A stretch of 34,813 nucleotides of DNA from Phycisphaerae bacterium (lineage in GTDB: Bacteria; Planctomycetota; Phycisphaerae; UBA1845). Under the pieces are notes generated by a model. The model searched no databases. It was not told where the DNA came from and saw only the letters and a program-made list of their open reading frames with translations. The stretch is from positions 1-34,813 of the forward strand of contig BQJS01000025.1 of NCBI GenBank assembly GCA_021604825.1, given 5' to 3'. Below, piece after piece: positions 16,714-34,813 of this stretch (its first letter is position 1; each line of letters starts with the position of its first letter). Made by a program: the position numbers and the translations under genes.

Positions 16714-19065
16714 ATGGGTCACAATGGGGCGTACAATGTGCGTATGATCGGTCAACACGTCAATCCCCCGCCCTCGCGACTCGCGATCCTTGCCGGATTC
16801 GGTGTGCTTGTCATTGCAGTAACAGCTGCGCATTGGCCGGTGTTGTCGGCTGGGGCGCTTTCGCTGGATGATTCGGAGTTTCTGACGAACAACCGGTTGG
16901 TGCAGAGTCCCAGTTGGGCTTCGACGCAGACATTTCTGACCGAAGTGCTCGAACCGTCTACCGTGCGCGGATATTACCTGCCGCTTTCGATGATGTCGCT
17001 GATGGGCGATTATGCGATGGGGGGCCGGCCCGACAATCTCGCCCCGTTTCATCGAACCAGTCTGATACTTCATGTCATTAATTGTGTGCTATTGACGGTG
17101 CTATTGGGTTGGCTCTTCGGATGGAGCCTCCCCGTTTTCGCCGTTGGGCTGTTGTTTGGCCTGCATCCGCTCACCGTCGAACCGGTGGTTTGGGTGGGCG
17201 AACGGAAAACGCTGCTGGCTGCGTTTTTTGTTCTTCTCGCGATGCTTGCTTACGTGCGCCATACGAGGGTTGGTGGATGGCGATGGATGATGGCAGCAAC
17301 TTTGGCCTACACACTGGCGATGATGTCGAAACCAACGGCGGTGATGTTACCGCTGCTCTTGGTTCTGATGGACTGGTGGCCACTCGGGCGATTGACCAAG
17401 CGGTCGCTCGTGGAGAAAGTGCCACTCTTTGGCATTATGGTTCTGTTCTCGGTGATCGCGTTGATGTCGCATGACCGGACGGCCGGATTTCTCTCGGAAG
17501 AATCGCCGGTGTCGGTCAATCGCGTACTTCTGGCCTTGTATTTGTGCGGATTTTACGCATCGAAGATTCTTTGGCCGGTTGATCTAACGCCGATTTATGC
17601 AATGCCCAATCCACTTTCGATAACACATCCCCTCGTCATTCTTGGCATTGTGATTGTGGGCGGGTTCGGCCTGCTCATTTGGGCGACATCCAAACGTTCG
17701 CGGGCGATTGCGGGTGGTGTATTGTTCTTCGGATTGGCGCTGGCTCCGACGATGGGGGTGGTGCGTTACAGCTGGGTGACGGCGTCGGATAAGTACGTGT
17801 ATCTGCCAGCGTTTGGGTTGGCGATGCTCGCGGCTTGGGGACTGGCGTTGCTTTGGACAAAGCTCAATCGGCAGAGTCGCTTCGCCTTGATTGGCGTGAT
17901 TGCTGCTGTGTTGGGTTTGGAAGTTGCGGGCACGCGCGTGGCCGCCAGCCATTGGCGCGACACCGAATCGCACTTTCGATACCTCACCGTGAATGCTCCC
18001 GGGCATCCCATGGCCCATTACGGACTGGGGCAGTGTTTACACCGACAAGAGCGTTATGCGGAGGCCATTGAACAGTACGAGCAGGTGCTAAGCATTGCCC
18101 CGAACTACGCCGAAGTGCATCATGACCTGGCGGTGTGTTTGTTTGAGCAGGGGGCGGTTGATCGAGCAATCGAGCGGTATCGACGGGCGATTGAAATCAA
18201 ATCCGACGAGAGCGAGTTCCACCGATCGTTGGGAGTCGCGTTGGAGGCTGTTGGTGATTTGAGCGGGGCGATGAAATCGTTGAACCGTGCGATCGAACTT
18301 GACCCCGAAAACGCCCATGCCCATTCCGATTTGGCCAAAACTTTGTACGGACGCGGGGATTTGGCGGCTGCAATCAAGGGCTTTCGCAGCGCTCTGCAGC
18401 TCGATCCAAAATCCGTCATCGCTAGGAACGGTCTTGGGGTGGTGTTGGCAGATACTGGGGATATCGACGCTTCAATTGACGAATTTCTGACTTGTCTGCA
18501 GTCCGAACCAGCCAATGCAGAGGTTCACAACAGCTTGGCTAACTCCTACTTGAAGAAACGCGACTTTGAGAATGCCCTCACCCATTATCGCCGGGCTGTG
18601 GATGCGGATCCGAACTATGCGGTCGCCCATCACAACTTAGCCGTGCTGCTCGCGAGTTTGAAGCGCATGGATGAAGCGATTGAGCATCATCTGGAAGCAA
18701 TCCGATGCGAGCCGAACTATCTCGAAGCGCGGATGAACCTGGCCAACATCTTCGCGGGGCAGCAGCGTTTTAGAGAAGCGGAAGCGCAACTTCGTAAGGC
18801 GATCGAAAGTTACCCTGACGCGCCAGCCGCCTACAACAACCTGGCTACGATTCTGCGATGGCAGGATCGCATCGATGAGGCGGCGGATGTTTATGCCAAC
18901 GTCGTGCGCCTGATGCCCAACGATGCCGATGCGCAATACACCATGGGAAAGTTACATCTTCGATTGAAAGACCAAGACGCAGCCGTCAGATACTTTAAGA
19001 AAGCGTTGGAGATCAATCCTGAACACGAGCGAGCCCAAGCGGAATTGAATTCGCTTTCGGAATAA
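16714..19065 (+). CDS. TMTC-like multi-spanning membrane protein with C-terminal TPR repeats
   Basis: This protein has 783 residues from ATG 16714; ATG 16744 would remove the first 10 residues and is equally plausible, since neither has a strong RBS. Residues about 22-425 contain roughly 10-11 membrane helices. They carry motifs seen in bacterial TMTC/DUF1736-type proteins: SLDDSEFLTNN near the start of the first periplasmic loop, HPLTVEPVVWVGERKTLL (about 150-167), MMSKPTAVMLP and TASDKYVYLP. These proteins have a GT-C glycosyltransferase-like layout with an acidic motif in the first loop; the eukaryotic TMTCs are O-mannosyltransferases. From about 430 to the end there are about 10 consecutive 34-residue TPRs (for example AIEQYEQVLSIAPNYAEVH, AMKSLNRAIELDPENAHAH). 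Protein or surface glycosylation is a possible role. It appears monocistronic. Confidence 0.87.
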   Translation: MGHNGAYNVRMIGQHVNPPPSRLAILAGFGVLVIAVTAAHWPVLSAGALSLDDSEFLTNNRLVQSPSWASTQTFLTEVLEPSTVRGYYLPLSMMSLMGDYAMGGRPDNLAPFHRTSLILHVINCVLLTVLLGWLFGWSLPVFAVGLLFGLHPLTVEPVVWVGERKTLLAAFFVLLAMLAYVRHTRVGGWRWMMAATLAYTLAMMSKPTAVMLPLLLVLMDWWPLGRLTKRSLVEKVPLFGIMVLFSVIALMSHDRTAGFLSEESPVSVNRVLLALYLCGFYASKILWPVDLTPIYAMPNPLSITHPLVILGIVIVGGFGLLIWATSKRSRAIAGGVLFFGLALAPTMGVVRYSWVTASDKYVYLPAFGLAMLAAWGLALLWTKLNRQSRFALIGVIAAVLGLEVAGTRVAASHWRDTESHFRYLTVNAPGHPMAHYGLGQCLHRQERYAEAIEQYEQVLSIAPNYAEVHHDLAVCLFEQGAVDRAIERYRRAIEIKSDESEFHRSLGVALEAVGDLSGAMKSLNRAIELDPENAHAHSDLAKTLYGRGDLAAAIKGFRSALQLDPKSVIARNGLGVVLADTGDIDASIDEFLTCLQSEPANAEVHNSLANSYLKKRDFENALTHYRRAVDADPNYAVAHHNLAVLLASLKRMDEAIEHHLEAIRCEPNYLEARMNLANIFAGQQRFREAEAQLRKAIESYPDAPAAYNNLATILRWQDRIDEAADVYANVVRLMPNDADAQYTMGKLHLRLKDQDAAVRYFKKALEINPEHERAQAELNSLSE

Positions 19066-20624: not shown

Positions 20625-21797
20625 TTAGTCCAGCCATGACTTGGTTTGTTTCAGCCGCTGCGGTGTGTACTCTTCAGTGACGAAGGTCAGTTCCTTACTG
20701 CACAGCGCTTCGACTTCCATCTTGAAACCATTCTTGATCATTTGTTTGATTTCGCGCTGCCACGGTTTTTTTCCGGCGAACCATGGATAGTTGAGAATCT
20801 GCTTGGCCCGTTTGACATCGTTGGCGTCGAGTTCGATTTTGACATCGTCGGTCAGGTCGAAACGTTCGTAGTCGTAACTGGATACGCCGATGAAGCGGGC
20901 GTCGGGGACGGCCATCCTTGACGACTCGAACGCGAGGTTGATCGAACCCTGCTTGATGACCGAATAGATGTAGTATCCCCACGGGTCGTTATCGAGTAGG
21001 CACACGACGGGCAGCTTGAGTTCGTCGTGCATTCGATAAAGCATTCGCCGCACGCCGCGCGACGGCTGACCACCGCCGTGGGTGAGGATGCAGCGGTGTT
21101 TCTCCCAAAAACGATCTTCGACAAAGCGCCGCCAAACTGTGTCTTTTTCGACATGAAGGACGTACTTGGCTTTGCACTTTTTGAACTGGATGACGTTTGG
21201 TTCGACGATGCTGGGGATGGCGTACCCGCCGCTGCCGAGTTTGGTGGCGTCGATGGTGTCGCCGCTGTCGACAAACGTTAACTCGCCGATGAGTGCTCCC
21301 TTGCTGCCGGCGAAGACGTGCAATTCTTCGCGCAGGGCTTCGAGGGCGACTTCCAAATCTTCGATGACGGGATCTGATTCGTCCTGATTGTCGAAAGTTT
21401 TTTCTTTCGTGCCTTTGATGGTGTGCTTGGCCAAGTAGTAGATTTGTCGAATGCTGGCTGTCTTGTCGGCATCGACGAGGTCTTTGCATTTACTCGCGAC
21501 CAAGAGCGTCTGCATGAACCGCTTCGCTTGTCCGTAATTGAACAAGTTGCGTTGTTGACAACGATCACCCATTTCGATGTAGCGGGTCTTGGGGTTGAAG
21601 CTGACGTTACTGAGCGCTCGAATGGGGATGTCGATCGCGGGTTCACGCTTTCCGAAGGCATTATCCACCACGGAACCTGCCAACCCTTCCAACTTGTCTG
21701 TGGTCTTGACGCCTTTTGCGCCCCGCTTGGATCGTTTTTTGATCACGGTCTTGGGGGCTTTCTTGGTCGCGGTCTTCTTTGATTTTTTCTTGGCCAT
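20625..21797 (-). CDS. top6A: DNA topoisomerase VI subunit A (Spo11-like)
   Basis: This is the 390-residue catalytic subunit of a type IIB topoisomerase. The first about 35 residues are a Lys-rich tail (AKKKSKKTATKKAPK ...). The winged-helix/CAP domain (about 55-200) carries TASIRQIYYLAKHTI, where one of the tyrosines at 120-121 (most likely 121) should form the 5'-phosphotyrosine link to DNA. The Toprim domain has HVEKDTVWRRF (Glu217) and LLDNDPWGYYIYSVI (Asp269, Asp271), the Mg-binding residues shared with Spo11. The enzyme cuts both strands with a two-base stagger and passes a second duplex in an ATP-dependent step driven by subunit B. The gene starts 54 bp after the top6B stop, so the two form an operon. 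Topoisomerase VI is standard in archaea and sporadic in bacteria. Confidence 0.94.
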   Translation of the reverse strand: MAKKKSKKTATKKAPKTVIKKRSKRGAKGVKTTDKLEGLAGSVVDNAFGKREPAIDIPIRALSNVSFNPKTRYIEMGDRCQQRNLFNYGQAKRFMQTLLVASKCKDLVDADKTASIRQIYYLAKHTIKGTKEKTFDNQDESDPVIEDLEVALEALREELHVFAGSKGALIGELTFVDSGDTIDATKLGSGGYAIPSIVEPNVIQFKKCKAKYVLHVEKDTVWRRFVEDRFWEKHRCILTHGGGQPSRGVRRMLYRMHDELKLPVVCLLDNDPWGYYIYSVIKQGSINLAFESSRMAVPDARFIGVSSYDYERFDLTDDVKIELDANDVKRAKQILNYPWFAGKKPWQREIKQMIKNGFKMEVEALCSKELTFVTEEYTPQRLKQTKSWLD

Positions 21798-21851
21798 GGG
21801 TTGCGGTCGACTATCTGTTCCGGTGTGGGTCCGGTTGAGTTTGCTTTCGGG

Positions 21852-23864
21852 TTACTTTCGCTTCTTGGTTTTCTTGGCGGATGACTTTTTGCTTGTTTTC
21901 TTCTTCTTTGTCTTCTTCGGTTTGGCACGGGTAGCACGTTTCGGACCGGCGTTGGTTTCTGCTTCACCGGCGAATAATTCCAACTGTCCTGGTGGTGCCT
22001 GCTCGGATTCGTCCAGGACAATCGTGTTGTCCATCTCCGATTTTCCGTTCTTGCGTTTTGCGATGATCTTGCCGTGGTCGTCGAATTCCATGTCAGCCGC
22101 TTCGGTTGCGCGGACGGCTAAGTCGTGTAGTGCTTGGCGAAGATCTTCTTTGTTGCATTCGGTCATCGACCCGCAGGATTCGGCAATCTCGTGAATATAG
22201 CGGTGAAACACATCGCGGCGCTGGGCGAAGTGCGATCGTTTCTTCTTTCGGCGGATGTACGTGCCAAGACGCCGGCCACACTCGGATAATCCGAGTTTGA
22301 TTTCCTTGCGGATTTCATCGTAGTCAGCGATCGCTTCCTTCGATTCCGACGTGAAAGGCACCCATACGCTGGCCATGTGGATCAAGACGACAAATGGGGC
22401 TTGCGGCAATGACGATCGCGATTGCGACAGACCGTAGTTGTTCCATTTGGTATCGACGACACTTTTGAACGTGCAGCATGCGCCTTGCTGATAGAGCAGT
22501 GGGACCCGGTTGGCGAAACGAATCACGCGCGCCGTCTGTGGTTGCTTGGACTTGTCGTCACCGTTGCCATTGCTGTTTGAATCGAGCGAGCCGAGTTGAC
22601 CGCCGAAGGCCATACCGACTTCAATTTGAAACGGGTTGCCGCGATAGACCGACGGAGGACGCGTCGATGCTGTGTAGAATTCGGCTTTGATTCCCTTGAG
22701 CAAACCGTTGAGGATGGCCTCCGCACCAATCGGCGCGAGGCAGTTGGTGCTGGGCGCGCGAAGTTTGGTTTCTTGCAGGACGTTGTAGAGTTTTTCGACG
22801 TCGGTCGGTGCGACGCTTTGAAGCCAGGTACGTTGGGTCAGACCAGCTTTGGCGCAGACCTCTTTGGCGATCTTTGGACTAACGCGGGAGAACTCACTGT
22901 TTAGAAACGCCCCCAATTGTTTGGATCCCGTTTCCTTGAGCATCTTCATCAACACGCCGAGTTCAACGCCGTGCGGATGCGGTTTGATCTCTTCAGTTTG
23001 CTCGGGCAGTTCATCGACGTTGCGTAGAAATTCGATGACTTTCTTGTCTGGACCTTTGAAAACAATCGACGTGTGCGGATTGGCGATGGCCGTCAATTCA
23101 ATGTATTCGGCGACACTTTGGCGACCTTTGTTGAAGCTAGCCACCATTTCAATCTCGATTTCCGTCCCTTGATCCCAAGGCACTTCCACGGTTTTGTCCG
23201 CGATGATATCGGGTTTGTTCTTCTTGGTGTCGATCGCCAGTTTGTAGTGGTGGGCGGGCTTGCCCTTGCCGGTGCGGCTGATGATGCTCACCGGTTTTCC
23301 TGTGGTGATCAACCCATACATGCCAGCCGCACTGATGCCGATACCCTGTTGACCGCGCGACATTTTGAGGCGGTGGAATTTTGAACCGTATAGCAGCTTG
23401 CCGAAGATATTAGGGATCTGCGCTTTGACGATACCCGGTCCGTTGTCTCGACAGATCATACGGAAACGGTCTTCCGAGAGCTGTTTGATTTCCAAATAGA
23501 TTTCCGGAAAGACGCCGCCTTCTTCGCACGCATCGAGGGCGTTGTCGACGGCTTCCTTCACGCTGGTTAAGAGCGCTTTTCGTTTGTTGTCGAAACCGAG
23601 GAGATGGCGGTTGCGGGCGAAGAATTCGGAGATGGAAATCTCGCGCTGCTGCTTGGCCATGCTCTCCGCGGACGCGCTGGATGATCGACTTTTCTTCTTG
23701 CTCACCTTGCCTGCCTTGGTACGGGTTAACTTTTTGACGGCTGCGGAAATTGAAGTTTGCGGGTCGAGATTCGGAGTCGTTTTGGTTTTCGCCGGGCCTG
23801 TGATATCTGAGTCTAGGCACGCTCCGCCAGCCCGCTGATCTTCCATGATCCTGCTTGCCTCCAT
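21852..23864 (-). CDS. top6B: DNA topoisomerase VI subunit B (GHKL ATPase)
   Basis: This 670-residue ATPase subunit has the family opening AKQQREISISEFFARNRHLLG at about 70-90 (described in pieces). The GHKL motifs follow: EAVDNALDACEE (104-115), DNGPGI (140-145) and SRGQQGIG (169-176). An H2TH-like region follows, then the transducer domain, with RFANRVPLLYQQGAC near 460-475. ATP binding dimerises B and gates strand passage by A. Residues 1-68 form a basic extension absent from typical family members. The last about 45 residues are almost a Lys/Ser/Thr tail. The start is uncertain: ATG 23864, ATG 23846 (GGAGG 11 bases upstream) or ATG 23660 (exactly at the conserved start). It is first in the top6B-top6A operon, divergent from dnaA. 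Confidence 0.94.
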   Translation of the reverse strand: MEASRIMEDQRAGGACLDSDITGPAKTKTTPNLDPQTSISAAVKKLTRTKAGKVSKKKSRSSSASAESMAKQQREISISEFFARNRHLLGFDNKRKALLTSVKEAVDNALDACEEGGVFPEIYLEIKQLSEDRFRMICRDNGPGIVKAQIPNIFGKLLYGSKFHRLKMSRGQQGIGISAAGMYGLITTGKPVSIISRTGKGKPAHHYKLAIDTKKNKPDIIADKTVEVPWDQGTEIEIEMVASFNKGRQSVAEYIELTAIANPHTSIVFKGPDKKVIEFLRNVDELPEQTEEIKPHPHGVELGVLMKMLKETGSKQLGAFLNSEFSRVSPKIAKEVCAKAGLTQRTWLQSVAPTDVEKLYNVLQETKLRAPSTNCLAPIGAEAILNGLLKGIKAEFYTASTRPPSVYRGNPFQIEVGMAFGGQLGSLDSNSNGNGDDKSKQPQTARVIRFANRVPLLYQQGACCTFKSVVDTKWNNYGLSQSRSSLPQAPFVVLIHMASVWVPFTSESKEAIADYDEIRKEIKLGLSECGRRLGTYIRRKKKRSHFAQRRDVFHRYIHEIAESCGSMTECNKEDLRQALHDLAVRATEAADMEFDDHGKIIAKRKNGKSEMDNTIVLDESEQAPPGQLELFAGEAETNAGPKRATRAKPKKTKKKKTSKKSSAKKTKKRK

Positions 23865-24232
23865 GCCTCGAACGATTCGAATTGAATCGGTTTGAGGTGT
23901 TTTATTGAGGGGCTTATCCTAACGTGCTTGAAACAAAGAGAACAGGACGCCAACCGGTGCAAAAAAACGCGACCGTTGAGGACGATTCCAAGCCCGCAGA
24001 GTCGTAAGCAATTTGTGGATAAAAGCTTCGGGCGCGGCGCTCCGATCGTGTTTATTCGACACATTTCACACTGGTTTTTCCACACGGTTCGTGTAGAATA
24101 ACCGTTTGATCGCCAGCGCGGCCAAACATCCATAACTGTATAAATTACAAAGCTTTACGATCATCTTATTTTCGTACTCGAGCATCATAACGAGGCTGGG
24201 ACACTCGCCCGGTTCGTTTTCTGGATATTCGC
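23865..24232. other. Candidate oriC, left part (top6B-dnaA intergenic)
   Basis: This 368-bp gap between divergent genes contains one perfect DnaA box, TTATCCACA, on the minus strand (24014-24022). A one-mismatch box, TTTTCCACA, lies on the plus strand (24076-24084), and a weaker TTATCCTAA at 23914-23922. An AT-rich stretch suitable for unwinding lies at about 24123-24190. TAGAAT at 24094-24099 could be a dnaA -10 element beside the second box, which would suit DnaA autoregulation. The dnaA and top6B promoters must both lie here. The gene context (dnaA and dnaN adjacent) supports an origin. Confidence 0.68.
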
Positions 24233-25564
24233 ATGTCTTCGATTGCTGCACCTGAGTGGAAAAGCATTTTGGACCGGATTCGGTCGCTGCATCCAGCGTT
24301 GATTCGCGGCTGGTTCAGCAGCTTGAAACCGATCGATTTAGCCGGAGGCGTTTTGCGCGTCCGCGCGGGCAACCTCAAGCAGGTGCGCTATCTCGAGGAC
24401 GAGTGTCGGTCGGTATTTATCGAGGCTGCCCAAGCCGTCATGGAGCAGTTGGTGACGACAACGTTTGAAACCGACGCTCCGAACGAGATCGCCGACGACG
24501 AAGGTTACCCACTTTCAATCTCAGAAAACAACCAGCTTCAACTCAACGACGATTATGTGTTCGACAATTTTGTGGTGGGGGCTGGCAACCGTATGGCCCA
24601 CGCGGCGGCGGTGGCTGCGGCTGAAAATCCAGGGCAGGTCTACAACCCACTGTTTATCCACGGTGACGTGGGTTTGGGAAAGACGCACCTGCTCCAGGCG
24701 ATCTGTCACGAAACCCGGCGACTCGGTACATGCCCGACGACGCTCTACATTTCGTGCGAAACCTTTGCGAATCATTTCATCGAAGCCGTCGAGCGCGGGG
24801 CGATGAATCAATTTCGCTTTCACTATCGCCACGTCGATCTGCTGGTCATCGATGACATTCAGTTTCTCGGCGCCCGCGAGCGGAGCCAGGAAGAATTCTT
24901 TCATACGTTTAACACGCTGCACCAATCGCAAAAGCAAATCGTCTTGTCGGCAGACTGCTCGCCGTCTGAGATTCCGACGCTTGAGAACCGTTTGGTGAGT
25001 CGATTCAAATCGGGGTTGGTGGCTTCGATCGACGCGCCGTGCATGGAAACGCGCATGGCCATTTTGCGAAAGAAGTCGCGTTTGCGGTGCATCGAAGTGC
25101 CCGAAGATGTGATTGAATACGTCGCGACCAATATCCACACGAACATTCGCGATCTGGAAGGGGCACTCTTGCGTCTTGATGCGATGAGCCAAGCTTCCGA
25201 CGGTACGATCGATGTGGAGCTTGCTCGAAGGGCGCTGGCTGACGGTTCAGAGGCCTCGGTGATTTCGATTCAACAGATCATCGATGTGGTCACCAGTCAC
25301 TTTGGAGTCCGGGTCAAGGATCTGCAAAGTAAGAAACGCCCGAAGTCGATCAGCCATCCGCGGCAGGTGTGCATGTTTTTGGCCCGCGAGCTGACGGAGC
25401 ATAGCCTCGAAGAGGTCGGTGGGTATTTCGGCGGGCGAGACCATTCGACGGTGCTGCACGCCAACCGAACGATCAAGAAGATGATCGACACCGACGCCAA
25501 GGTGCGCCGATCGGTCGAGAACCTGCGGGCTACGCTGCGGGCCAGGCAGAATGGCATAAGCTGA
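24233..25564 (+). CDS. dnaA: Chromosomal replication initiator protein DnaA
   Basis: This 443-residue protein has all four DnaA domains. Domain I (about 1-80) is the helicase/partner-binding part, with WKSILDRIRSLHPALIRGWFSSLKPI in two halves. A short linker (about 80-105) follows. The AAA+ domain III has Walker A GDVGLGKT (144-151), Walker B LLVIDDI (203-209) and sensor/arginine-finger regions (PTLENRLVSRFKSGL). Domain IV has the DNA-binding signature GGRDHSTVLHA at about 400-410. DnaA-ATP binds DnaA boxes and opens the origin; such boxes lie on both sides of this gene. ATG 24233 has no strong Shine-Dalgarno sequence. The Gly-Asp in Walker A (often Gly-Gly or Gly-Ser) is a mild variation. 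Confidence 0.97.
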   Translation: MSSIAAPEWKSILDRIRSLHPALIRGWFSSLKPIDLAGGVLRVRAGNLKQVRYLEDECRSVFIEAAQAVMEQLVTTTFETDAPNEIADDEGYPLSISENNQLQLNDDYVFDNFVVGAGNRMAHAAAVAAAENPGQVYNPLFIHGDVGLGKTHLLQAICHETRRLGTCPTTLYISCETFANHFIEAVERGAMNQFRFHYRHVDLLVIDDIQFLGARERSQEEFFHTFNTLHQSQKQIVLSADCSPSEIPTLENRLVSRFKSGLVASIDAPCMETRMAILRKKSRLRCIEVPEDVIEYVATNIHTNIRDLEGALLRLDAMSQASDGTIDVELARRALADGSEASVISIQQIIDVVTSHFGVRVKDLQSKKRPKSISHPRQVCMFLARELTEHSLEEVGGYFGGRDHSTVLHANRTIKKMIDTDAKVRRSVENLRATLRARQNGIS

Positions 25565-25939
25565 TATGTACACGAAAGATGCGCGACGAAGCAGTCTTGT
25601 GTGCAACGGTCCTGTGAGTAAGGGTGATGGGGATATCACCAAACGATCGCAGGACTGTCAGATGTGCAGTGAGTCAATCGCGATTGAGTCACACGATTCC
25701 ACAGGGCACCAGGTGGATTGGAGGCGCCCGTGACTGGTTGCGAGGTTGCCAACGCTGGCACTGACAAGTTATCCACGTGTTGGTGAGGTTGAAAAGATCG
25801 CTTAAGATATGGCCAAGCAAAAGCTTACCCGTGTCGTATGATCAGGAACCGCGTTTCTGACAGGGTATGGTAATAAGAAGTTCTTTATAGATTAGACTTA
25901 CACATTAAACACGTAGATTACTTTAGAAGGTCAACGTTC
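25565..25939. other. dnaA-dnaN intergenic region, candidate second part of oriC
   Basis: 375 bp without a credible gene. A DnaA box with one mismatch, TTATCCACG, lies at 25769-25777. A clearly AT-rich stretch (about 25867-25930, with GATTA repeated) lies just before the dnaN RBS AGAAGG. In many bacteria the origin is split across dnaA in this way, with the unwinding element in the dnaA-dnaN gap. The dnaN promoter should also be here. Confidence 0.5.
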
Positions 25940-32014: not shown

Positions 32015-34393
32015 TTAATTCCCAAGCCCGTGTGCGGTGTTCATGTTCGAGATGCTGTCTCCACCGTGGCACACTGAGCAGGACTCGGCATTTGTTACAT
32101 CTTGTCGCTGCGTGAAGTCATCCGCGCCTACGTTGGCAACGCTAATGACGCCACCGTTTTGCCGCATGTGGGCGAGCGTCAAATCGTTGTCGTGGCAGTA
32201 ATAGCATGTGGACGCGGTGGCTGTGTTCACCCAGTCGTTGACATTGGGTACGCTGTCGCGGGCTGCATCGACGGCAGCGAAATCGTTTCCGTCCAAACCG
32301 TCAGCGGTGCCCGTGGTGCGGACCGTCGTGTCCAATACGTTCTCAGCCAACGGCAACTCGTAAGTGCCTTCCATGTGACACAGTAGGCAGTTGCTGGAAC
32401 CGTGTTCGGCTGGGTAGGTGACTTCCGCCCAGTCGTAGAAGATACCATCGTTGCGGCCGCGGACAAACTGATAGTCGTTCGAACGCATGGCCGAAGCGTG
32501 GATACCGTGGATCATTTCCTTGAAGTTGTTGGTGTCTTCCGGCCAGGTCCAGGTATCGCTGTTACCCAATGCAACGGTTGCGGCTGAAGGATCATCCGTA
32601 AGCGGATCACCGTCCCGGTCAGCAGCATTGGCTGGGTTGATCGCCCGCCCGCTGGTGCTCAAGTTCGGGACGTGACAGAGCGCACAGATCGAGGGATCCA
32701 TGGGCATCTTTTCATTCAGCCCAACGACCCGGTTACCACCGTGCCCTTCAAACCACTCGTGACAAGCGCCGCATTTATTCGAGTCGACGATTTCACGACG
32801 AATTTCGTCACCGGTGACAGCGGCTACTGCCGACAGCGTGTGCAGGCTGGCGTCCTGGGCTTCGTCGCCATCGGTGTCGAATTGGAAGTAGCCCTGCAGA
32901 CCAACGGCTCGCAACATAGATCCTGCCGGGAACGCATTACCGGTCGAAGCAAAGTCGGCTACACAGTCTGTACCGCTGGAGCAATCGATACCCGCTGCCG
33001 CGACCAAGTCGCCAAGATCGACGCCGACAGGTTGTCCACCGTTTTGCCCAGTGTTGGTGTAGTCAGCCGGATTGGCGATACCGTCCTGCGCTTCGGCCCA
33101 AGCCATCAAGAAGACTGGCCAACGGAATGCGTTGCCATCTCCATCCACAAAACCATCTGGCAGGTCGTTCAAGTCGAGCAATTCGCCGTCGGCAGTCACC
33201 TTGAATGTGACTGTCGGATTTCCACCACCGTCTACGGTGACTGCGCTTACGCTGAATTCCATTGCAGGTACGCTGGCTGGCAGGTTCGGATTGTTGGGCG
33301 TTGCGTTTAAGGTGAGGTGACTGTCTTCAATACCGGCAATTCCACCGGATGCCGGGTGGCAAGCTGCGCACCCGGAGTTATCTGCCTGAGGACCGGCACT
33401 GTGCAGCGTCATACCCTCAGGTGCGGGATCGACAAAGCTCGTCTGGTGACAGCCCCCGCAGGCCATGATGCTGGGGACCGTGTTCCAATTGTCGCCGTCC
33501 GGAGTCGCTTCGTCATCGCTGGTATGGCACTTGCGACAATTCGCGAGGTCTTGCGGATACGTCACCTCTGAATAGTCGATGCCCTCGTCGAGCACGTCGA
33601 ACTTCTGGGCCGCGTGAATCTTGTGCGTCATAAACGCCATGTCGCCCTCGCCCATGGCCAACTCGGGCGTGTGGCAGTTCACGCAGTATTCCACCTTGAA
33701 TCGGCGACCATGGAACACGAGGTCTTCGTGGCACTCATTGCAGGAATTCATCGTCACGATGTTGCGGGTTTCAGTCACAGCCCCGCCTCCCGGGACAAAA
33801 TCCATAACCAAATTCTGGGCCGGCAAGGGGCTGCTACCGGAGCCGATCTGTCCAGCCACACGGTGGCTTAGCGTCGGTTCGTAAGTCACTCCGCTTACTT
33901 CGGCGACGTCGGTGTTGAAAGTGAACACGTAAGTTCCGTCGCCGTTGTCGACCAAGGATGAACCGGTGTCGTAATCAGGCGGGGTGGAACCATCGTTGGT
34001 CGTATCTCGTGTGTATGCGACCCAAGTGCTTGGATCACCATTGGTTCCCGCGACCAGTTTGGTCAGGGTAAATCGCACAAAGCGGTTGCTATCTTCCCAA
34101 AGCGCACCGATGCCCGTGATGGGTGTGCCGCTGGCTGTCGTTACAGTGAAATTGACGACCGGTGGGCTGGCGATGGTGACGCCAGTGATTTCGCTTTGAA
34201 CTTCCATCCCTGCGAAGTCATCGTCCGAAGCGGTGCCCAAGTCGACCACCGCCTGTCCGGCGGGACCGGCAGGGCCTGGTTCACCTTGGGGGCCTTGCGG
34301 ACCGGGAACACCGTTGCCACATCCGGCGATGCTCAGACCGAGTACCGCCAAAACGGCTGGCAAAAAATTTGTCCAAGCGATTCGACTTGTCAT
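32015..34393 (-). CDS. OmcA/MtrC-type decaheme c-type cytochrome, outer-surface lipoprotein
   Basis: With ATG 34393, preceded by AAGGAG, the protein is 792 residues; a longer reading from 34600 puts a non-conserved leader before the signal peptide and is rejected. A lipoprotein signal ends at lipobox IAGC (Cys25). A short collagen-like linker GPQGPQGEPGPAGPAG (31-46) follows. There are exactly ten CxxCH haem sites, in order CNECH, CVNCH, CRKCH, CGGCH, CAACH, CGACH, CALCH, CLLCH, CYYCH and CSVCH. They form two groups of five, separated by a beta-rich region, with another beta-rich domain at the N-terminus. This four-domain, 5+5 haem layout is that of OmcA/MtrC proteins, which carry electrons across the cell surface to metals or other external acceptors. 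The partner porin and inner cytochromes (MtrAB-type) are not in the window. Confidence 0.93.
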   Translation of the reverse strand: MTSRIAWTNFLPAVLAVLGLSIAGCGNGVPGPQGPQGEPGPAGPAGQAVVDLGTASDDDFAGMEVQSEITGVTIASPPVVNFTVTTASGTPITGIGALWEDSNRFVRFTLTKLVAGTNGDPSTWVAYTRDTTNDGSTPPDYDTGSSLVDNGDGTYVFTFNTDVAEVSGVTYEPTLSHRVAGQIGSGSSPLPAQNLVMDFVPGGGAVTETRNIVTMNSCNECHEDLVFHGRRFKVEYCVNCHTPELAMGEGDMAFMTHKIHAAQKFDVLDEGIDYSEVTYPQDLANCRKCHTSDDEATPDGDNWNTVPSIMACGGCHQTSFVDPAPEGMTLHSAGPQADNSGCAACHPASGGIAGIEDSHLTLNATPNNPNLPASVPAMEFSVSAVTVDGGGNPTVTFKVTADGELLDLNDLPDGFVDGDGNAFRWPVFLMAWAEAQDGIANPADYTNTGQNGGQPVGVDLGDLVAAAGIDCSSGTDCVADFASTGNAFPAGSMLRAVGLQGYFQFDTDGDEAQDASLHTLSAVAAVTGDEIRREIVDSNKCGACHEWFEGHGGNRVVGLNEKMPMDPSICALCHVPNLSTSGRAINPANAADRDGDPLTDDPSAATVALGNSDTWTWPEDTNNFKEMIHGIHASAMRSNDYQFVRGRNDGIFYDWAEVTYPAEHGSSNCLLCHMEGTYELPLAENVLDTTVRTTGTADGLDGNDFAAVDAARDSVPNVNDWVNTATASTCYYCHDNDLTLAHMRQNGGVISVANVGADDFTQRQDVTNAESCSVCHGGDSISNMNTAHGLGN

Positions 34394-34813
34394 GTTTAGT
34401 CTCCTTACAAGTTCGCCGAATACGACGAGCGAGATGCGAAAGCAATGCGCTAATGAGGTCATTTGAAACTTCCAATACAGCATTCTTTTAATCGACAATC
34501 TCAATCCACACAAACTAATCTTTCTCTTCTTATCTTGCCACTGCGCGCATGATTCAGTGCGCACAGCGCTCGTGGATCTTGTATTGGTGCAACCGCGCAA
34601 TCTATCGCGGCAAATAGCGCACCCGTATCGGCAAATCGCGCAATAGAATCAGTCGTTGCGTGCGCTTCCGCCAGTTTTGATTAGGTTCAGTATGAATTCT
34701 GCATCAGAACCGTGAAGGGGAGAGGCAATTTACGCGCCGCCCGGTTTGGTTTGTGGATATTAATTTTTGATTTGCACCAGTGTCGGCGCTGGGTGGTGCG
34801 GAATGTCTGCGAA
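34394..34813. other. Upstream region of the decaheme cytochrome gene, to the window edge
   Basis: 420 bp with no supportable gene. The RBS AAGGAG lies about 8 bases before the cytochrome ATG. The in-frame minus extension to 34600 is probably leader. I cannot identify a clear promoter or operator. Confidence 0.5.

Follow-up and report, generated by a model that had tools for sequence, protein, structure and literature searches.

The window analysed here (34,813 nucleotides, positions 1 to 34,813 of contig BQJS01000025.1, assembly GCA_021604825.1, from a Phycisphaerae bacterium) encodes both subunits of a topoisomerase VI, Top6A and Top6B, on the strand opposite to dnaA and immediately beside it. 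We found that topoisomerase VI is core in the order of the closest relative of this DNA, and that the linkage of top6B to dnaA is old and confined to one large subclade. The reading we favour, with a probability of roughly 60%, is that topoisomerase VI is an ancestral decatenase that replaces topoisomerase IV in these planctomycetes, and that top6B has been retained at dnaA for dosage or expression. Accordingly phrased as a mechanism, topoisomerase VI would be an ancestral housekeeping enzyme of the order rather than an insertion; gyrase would add negative supercoils and the Top6A2B2 heterotetramer would unlink replicated sister DNA. The ancestor of one large subclade would then have acquired the divergent arrangement, with top6B facing away from dnaA in front of the dnaA-dnaN-gyrB block. 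The gene would have been kept there because dosage near the origin and expression together with the replication genes are useful, leaving top6A free to move away without loss of the complex. The decatenase function in these cells and the selective reason for the adjacency are the parts of this reading that we infer.

Topoisomerase VI and topoisomerase IV among the relatives

Both subunits were identified by profiles and by alignment to solved archaeal enzymes. Top6A exceeded the Pfam cut-offs of TP6A_N, TOP6A-Spo11_Toprim and Topo_VI_alpha (and matched NF003333 at 547 bits), and Top6B those of HATPase_c and Topo-VIb_trans (TIGR01052 top6b, 513.7 bits; NF003218, 668.6 bits). In an alignment of 19 sequences the Top6A residues R117, Y120, Y121, E217, D269 and D271 were invariant; we take them to include the catalytic tyrosine and the Toprim acidic residues. 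Top6A aligned to the archaeal structures 2zbk_A and 1d3y_A, and Top6B to Methanosarcina mazei 2q2e_B over residues 65-570 (476 bits); both subunits match solved archaeal topoisomerase VI along most of their conserved length. Top6A has the winged-helix/5Y-CAP domain together with the catalytic tyrosine and Toprim acidic residues, and Top6B has the GHKL ATPase and the transducer domain. The alignment to 2q2e_B runs unbroken between these two Top6B domains, pointing to an H2TH domain, which is absent from the TopoVIB-like partners of Spo11 (survey by Allen and Maxwell 2024, PMC11302465). The claim of an earlier note on this DNA, that top6B and top6A are intact, carry all catalytic motifs and diverge from dnaA, thus agrees with profiles, alignments and coordinates alike. 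In eleven relatives (G007, G022, G041, G048, G186, G187, G188, G189, G191, G192, G205) the transducer profile matched Top6B in two separate pieces with equal open frame length, so that several lineages may have an insertion within this domain.

The distribution of the enzyme was assessed in samples of 114 (order), 150 (class) and 246 (phylum) genomes defined around the closest relative, G001 (locus L001); they are mostly draft assemblies, and the titled records are mostly metagenome-assembled genomes (MAGs). Top6A of L001 is 95% identical to that of the window over the best segment; the other closest relatives are G152, G231 and G233, with G232 further off. Titled records belonging to the order are named Phycisphaerae, Phycisphaerales, Planctomycetota or Planctomycetaceae. 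Top6B (PF09239) was present in 107 of the 114 order genomes, in 92 of the 150 class genomes and in 114 of the 246 of the phylum sample. Top6A (PF21180) likewise scored above its cut-off in 92 class genomes and shares 91 with the Top6B set (the exceptions being G120, with Top6B only, and G037, with Top6A only). Topoisomerase VI is hence core in the order, and incomplete assemblies may explain some of the seven order genomes without Top6B. By way of background, topoisomerase VI has been reported in 17 bacterial families, seven of which also have topoisomerase IV (PMC11302465). Four locus records (L001, L021, L053, L064) are titled Alphaproteobacteria, Chthonomonadales, Acidobacteria and Deltaproteobacteria, respectively, and their topoisomerase VI genes group with planctomycete ones; these are either mislabelled MAGs or cases of gene transfer, and for L001/G001 the title is probably a mislabel.

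Second matches to type IIA subunits are rare in the Top6B genomes of the class and the order. In the class sample a second GyrA/ParC match was recorded in 2 of the 92 Top6B genomes versus 16 of the 58 without Top6B, a second GyrB/ParE match in 1 of 92 (G109) versus 17 of 58, and second matches of both types in none of 92 versus 14 of 58. The two GyrA/ParC cases with Top6B (G029, G151) are weak (best E-values 7.5e-82 and 6.6e-86) and were read as split-gene pieces, though kept in the counts; some of the second matches in Top6B-less genomes may be gene pieces too (e.g., G040, G067, G142). Within the order, a GyrA/ParC match was found in 110 of 114 genomes, with two full-length matches only in G230, small extra pieces in G227 and G007, and only a partial gene in a few genomes; the 24 order genomes that are part of the class sample have one GyrB/ParE match each. 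Judged from the genomes of these relatives, topoisomerase IV seems to be missing in the order, which makes a decatenation role plausible, and topoisomerase VI most likely supplies the decatenation that topoisomerase IV would otherwise perform in these cells. The M. mazei enzyme is a preferential decatenase and a slow relaxase (PMC8837201), and complementation of an Escherichia coli parE mutant by M. mazei topoisomerase VI has been mentioned as unpublished (PMC11302465). That bacteria may have topoisomerase VI without topoisomerase IV is already known from the same survey. A strict mutual exclusion of the two enzymes was considered and ruled out by the 16 of 114 Top6B genomes of the phylum sample that have a second GyrA/ParC match.

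The dnaA-top6B adjacency and its age

We mapped genes by tblastn on the flanks of top6B in the 107 order genomes that have it, and scored adjacency as a divergent dnaA at most 3.5 kb from top6B. It was found in 31 of the 107, and in 29 of the 83 that are informative (at least 3 kb of upstream sequence; the remaining 24 were not counted, though two of them show adjacency). The gap between the two genes is 335-659 bp in 28 of the 31 adjacent loci and 2.1-2.4 kb in the other three, and the loci also contain dnaN (30/31) and gyrB (29/31). Other arrangements also occur: dnaA lies 4.0 kb from top6B in G219, top6B is convergent with gyrB in G111, and in G183 it is co-directional with dnaA, which follows 5.9 kb downstream. 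At a further locus (L013:9-4764) dnaN, a DciA-like gene and gyrB are followed straight after by top6A on the same strand, and top6B was not detected on its 7.2-kb contig.

Among the 26 adjacent loci outside the close group of the window (hereafter deeper loci), the families recurring in at least five are dnaA, dnaN, the small DciA-like gene, gyrB, top6B and top6A; judged by coordinates, the others that reach this count are open reading frames (ORFs) overlapping those genes on the opposite strand or in another frame (the family count is complete for at least five loci, and not for four). The small gene between dnaN and gyrB recurs in 21 of the 26. Top6A is less constant: within 3.5 kb in 14 of the 20 adjacent loci that have at least 3.5 kb of downstream sequence, and not nearby in six (G197, G069, G206, G213, G146, G158). 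In the whole order it follows top6B within 3.5 kb downstream in 42 of 107 genomes (32 of 78 informative). As top6A is not nearby in six of the 20, the persistent unit is dnaA-top6B and not the whole operon.

A Top6B tree (130 sequences, i.e. the window, 102 order genomes and 27 other loci; quick method, LG+G4; five of the 107 order genomes left out for a Top6B below 420 amino acids) united the window with the 31 adjacent genomes in a single 50-row clade, with a support of 84 in the Shimodaira-Hasegawa-like approximate likelihood ratio test and of 100 for each of its two parts. On this tree adjacency requires eight state changes, five of them forced by strong branches, versus a mean of 26 after shuffling (none of 500 shuffles was as low). 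Read with the root outside the clade, the pattern fits one old event, i.e. one gain and about seven losses; the branch that joins the clade is not strong, and there may have been two gains. Adjacency has been kept in 32 of the 43 informative clade rows, window included.

The Top6B tree was further compared with a DnaA+DnaN+GyrB tree over 31 adjacent taxa, counting the window and omitting G229. The two share 13 of 28 splits (maximum of 500 shuffles, 3); 9 of 11 strong Top6B splits appear in the core tree, and 13 of 18 strong core splits in that of Top6B. Top6B thus appears to have been mostly vertically co-inherited with these replication proteins, with some disagreement.

These data bear on a recent acquisition from archaea or by way of a mobile element, with chance insertion at the origin. 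Bacterial topoisomerase VI clusters within archaeal topoisomerase VI trees and the genes are probably ultimately archaeal (PMC11302465, on which the deep origin of the bacterial enzyme rests here); against recency stand the presence of topoisomerase VI in 107 of 114 order genomes and its place in a planctomycete Top6B clade whose descent mostly parallels that of the replication genes (in a tree that contains no archaeal sequences), and among the 120 homologs listed those named by organism are planctomycete MAG proteins, with one named only 'bacterium'. We therefore regard a recent acquisition as hardly credible, and a recent stray insertion is countered by order-wide presence together with the confinement of adjacency to a single clade; the earlier note, which had doubted such an event, is borne out in this respect.

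A neutral history is a more serious competitor, one we consider unlikely but worth keeping in mind: top6 would have landed beside dnaA once and stayed there since the dnaA-dnaN-gyrB region rearranges slowly, its position being without functional meaning. One gain explains the pattern, about seven losses were tolerated, and genomes without adjacency still keep the enzyme. Yet no other non-core family reaches five of the 26 deeper loci, while the dnaA-top6B pair persists in about three quarters of the informative clade members, and the spacing has stayed short in nearly all adjacent loci.

Several observations weigh against the retention of an ancestral topoisomerase IV substitute at dnaA as the favoured reading. 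Fifty-four of the 83 informative order genomes have no divergent dnaA within 3.5 kb of top6B (43 of them fall outside the adjacent clade; the 11 within it are best explained by secondary loss of the adjacency); the earlier note had held that relatives lacking top6 at this locus would argue for chance insertion, and such relatives do exist, in part. Among the dnaA matches listed, the one of G041 lies at 1 kb with top6B at 3.2 Mb, and that of G012 lies 1 Mb from top6B. With top6B away from dnaA in many order genomes, function does not depend on this position. Of the strong Top6B splits, one contradicts the DnaA+DnaN+GyrB tree. On the side of topoisomerase IV, the contrast is weaker in the phylum sample (a second GyrA/ParC match in 16 of 114 Top6B genomes versus 71 of 132 without), GyrB/ParE copies were counted in the class sample only (24 order genomes), and the contrasts between the two enzymes are not corrected for kinship. 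Moreover, a second GyrA/ParC match is also missing from 42 of the 58 class genomes without Top6B, and gyrase by itself may thus be enough.

A bolder form of the favoured reading can be tentatively entertained, and we consider it doubtful: dnaA-top6B would be a conserved, origin-proximal control pair that ties the supply of the ATPase subunit of the sole dedicated decatenase to replication initiation, Top6B would be limiting (hence B stays at dnaA where A left), and the whole would amount to an origin-programmed type IIB replacement for topoisomerase IV.

The spacer and the distance to the replication origin

The earlier note had described a DnaA-box region between top6B and dnaA, and locally this holds, with one perfect and one near box in the spacer (Table 1). 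The pattern TTWTNCACA has two matches in the window, both inside this spacer, versus a chance mean of 2.12; boxes with one mismatch number ten (4.65 expected; 2 of 100 shuffles reach ten), and five of them fall within 24014-25777, around dnaA. In G001 the sole perfect DnaA box in 400 kb sits at the place matching the window box at 24014. Across six close relatives (window included) the blocks around the spacer boxes and the TATCCTAACG block are conserved and much of the rest drifts, which looks like autoregulation of dnaA together with a separate candidate control element of top6B (TATCCTAACG). A consensus scan of 23700-24300 found no sigma-70-type promoter.

The box signal is nonetheless modest and becomes scarce in deeper relatives. 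The 23 deeper spacers (below 800 bp) contain no perfect and no TTNTCCACA box, and their one TTWTNCACA match is not above shuffles; a one-mismatch box lies in the spacer of 2 of the 26 deeper loci (G216, G075). The boxes that deeper loci do have fall just as often between dnaA and dnaN or within dnaA. In 9 of 32 loci, window included, a box with no more than one mismatch follows the dnaA start at a distance of 1.40-1.54 kb, which is in or close to the dnaA-dnaN spacer (25565-25939 in the window); two of these nine, in the deeper relatives G202 and G003, are perfect. We take this recurrence as a lead for an origin on the dnaA-dnaN side. By their scarcity in deeper spacers, DnaA boxes are ruled out as the conserved reason for adjacency beyond the close group of the window, and they are not what holds the genes together. 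An enriched 7-mer, GCCATCC (14 of 23 deeper spacers), was likewise set aside: its reverse complement holds GGATGGC, and it looks like the start-codon context of top6B, because many spacers as cut include N-terminal codons of that gene.

Distance to the origin was estimated from two draft assemblies, G001 and G152. The GC skew of G001 stays below zero to about 390 kb and is mostly above it from about 406 kb on, placing its sign change 40-55 kb from dnaA (top6BA-dnaA at 441.8-446.6 kb); in G152 the change falls at 162-170 kb, 30-37 kb from dnaA at 200 kb, with 3 of 28 sampled windows (at 5, 188 and 260 kb) opposing the pattern. For G197, whose chromosome is a single contig, 20 sampled windows gave no readable skew. 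A large inversion separates G001 (C10) from G152 (C2); of 20 G152 pieces sampled, 18 map to G001, and dnaA falls within the collinear core. Inversions of this kind are usually centred on origins. We place the axis of this one at 447-460 kb in G001 and at 202-215 kb in G152, i.e. 0-14 kb from dnaA on the dnaN-gyrB side. Skew and inversion axis disagree by tens of kilobases, and the nearness of the locus to the origin is thus resolved to about 50 kb at best. The claim that the operon is placed at the replication origin stands in these two relatives at that resolution and not at a finer one.

That topoisomerase VI acts in origin firing, with the spacer as oriC and DnaA controlling top6B, we consider very improbable. 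In its favour are the DnaA boxes and the conserved blocks that the six-member group has in its spacer, and the one-mismatch boxes of the window, which exceed most shuffles and lie half around dnaA. Against it, the spacer of the window holds only two boxes rather than a DnaA-box cluster, the 23 deeper spacers do not rise above shuffles, the boxes of deeper loci fall as often elsewhere around dnaA, the skew of G001 changes tens of kilobases away, and most of the order does without adjacency. The suggestion of the earlier note that the enzyme takes part in origin firing or in decatenation accordingly divides: decatenation is plausible, with topoisomerase IV seemingly missing, and a role in origin firing is unsupported, boxes being scarce in deeper spacers and the enzyme being kept in many relatives away from dnaA.

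Neighbouring genes and comparison with known systems

The gene order on the dnaA side is dnaA, dnaN, a small ORF and gyrB; top6A and top6B are separated by 54 bp, and both diverge from dnaA. All of the named genes exceed curated profile cut-offs, with the exception of the small ORF (Pfam DciA, 13.4 bits, under the cut-off of 24). Its identity as DciA did not hold up: among four proteins tested two were below the cut-off and two had no DciA match, leaving a positional guess only.

Table 1. Features of the top6-dnaA region, in window coordinates
Feature	Position	Strand	Basis
top6A, topoisomerase VI subunit A, 390 aa (amino acids)	20625-21797	-	profile matches, alignments
top6B, topoisomerase VI subunit B, 670 aa	21852-23864	-	profile matches, alignment
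top6B domains: GHKL ATPase, H2TH region, transducer, basic C-terminal tail			
top6B-dnaA divergent spacer, 368 bp	23865-24232		read directly; aligned with five close relatives
TATCCTAACG, invariant in six close relatives (window included), near top6B start	23915-23924		alignment
DnaA box TTATCCACA, perfect, in conserved block	24014-24022	-	box scan, alignment
DnaA-box-like TTTTCCACA, one mismatch, conserved block upstream of dnaA	24076-24084	+	box scan, alignment
dnaA, 443 aa	24233-25564	+	TIGR00362, 466.5 bits (cut-off 343.9)
One-mismatch DnaA box TTATCCACG, dnaA-dnaN spacer	25769-25777	+	box scan
dnaN, DNA polymerase III beta clamp, 365 aa	25940-27037	+	TIGR00663, 239.7 bits
Small ORF between dnaN and gyrB, 127 aa	27070-27453	+	DciA-like by position only
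gyrB, DNA gyrase subunit B, 884 aa	27538-30192	+	TIGR01059, 885.7 bits (cut-off 882.4)

Most genomes of the class sample have two matches to the DnaA C-terminal domain (among the matches listed), pointing to a second dnaA-like gene that is probably present in most of them; in G222 (L137) a second dnaA-like match (35% identity) lies about 10 kb from top6B, on its other side. Elsewhere in the window, near the replication genes, an 861-amino-acid OmcA/MtrC-type decaheme c-type cytochrome (32015-34600, minus strand; TIGR03507, 390.9 bits) suggests a capacity for extracellular electron transfer in this planctomycete, and a 783-amino-acid protein (16714-19065, plus strand) has about nine TPR repeats in its C-terminal half.

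No description of the dnaA-top6B linkage was found in the literature searched (open-licence PMC papers only). New here are the presence of the enzyme across the order, the old link between dnaA and top6B, the finding that B is retained where A is not, and the contrast with topoisomerase IV at the level of the class. Together they point to bacteria that have an archaeal-type topoisomerase as a core enzyme of their lineage; it has mostly been inherited along with the replication genes and very probably takes the place of topoisomerase IV. The question of what bacterial topoisomerase VI does becomes directly testable, as a single class offers a natural experiment (top6B at dnaA versus elsewhere, topoisomerase IV versus topoisomerase VI).

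Compared with the bacterial dnaA-dnaN-(recF)-gyrB cluster of origin regions, the window shares the order of dnaA, dnaN and gyrB and a small gene before gyrB; it differs in having no ORF of recF size between dnaN and gyrB, and in the type IIB topoisomerase gene on the divergent side. Archaeal topoisomerase VI (M. mazei 2q2e, Saccharolobus shibatae 2zbk) has the same subunits, domain order and catalytic residues, with a Top6B alignment of about 500 residues, whereas here the host is a bacterium with gyrase and DnaA, the genes lie next to dnaA, and Top6B is extended at both termini, with a small insert in its transducer region. Topoisomerase IV (ParC/ParE) is the enzyme with the same proposed job, the decatenation of replicated chromosomes, but it is of type IIA and differs in build. 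A further likeness is with the topoisomerase VI of Planctomycetes-Verrucomicrobia-Chlamydiae (PVC) bacteria described by Allen and Maxwell (2024, PMC11302465), which also occurs together with gyrase; in that survey the topoisomerase VI-bearing groups outside Pseudomonadota and Terrabacteria are reported without topoisomerase IV, as seems to hold for the relatives studied here. The words 'dnaA' and 'operon' have no occurrence in its main text, and it is the order-wide counts and the linkage to dnaA that the present analysis adds.

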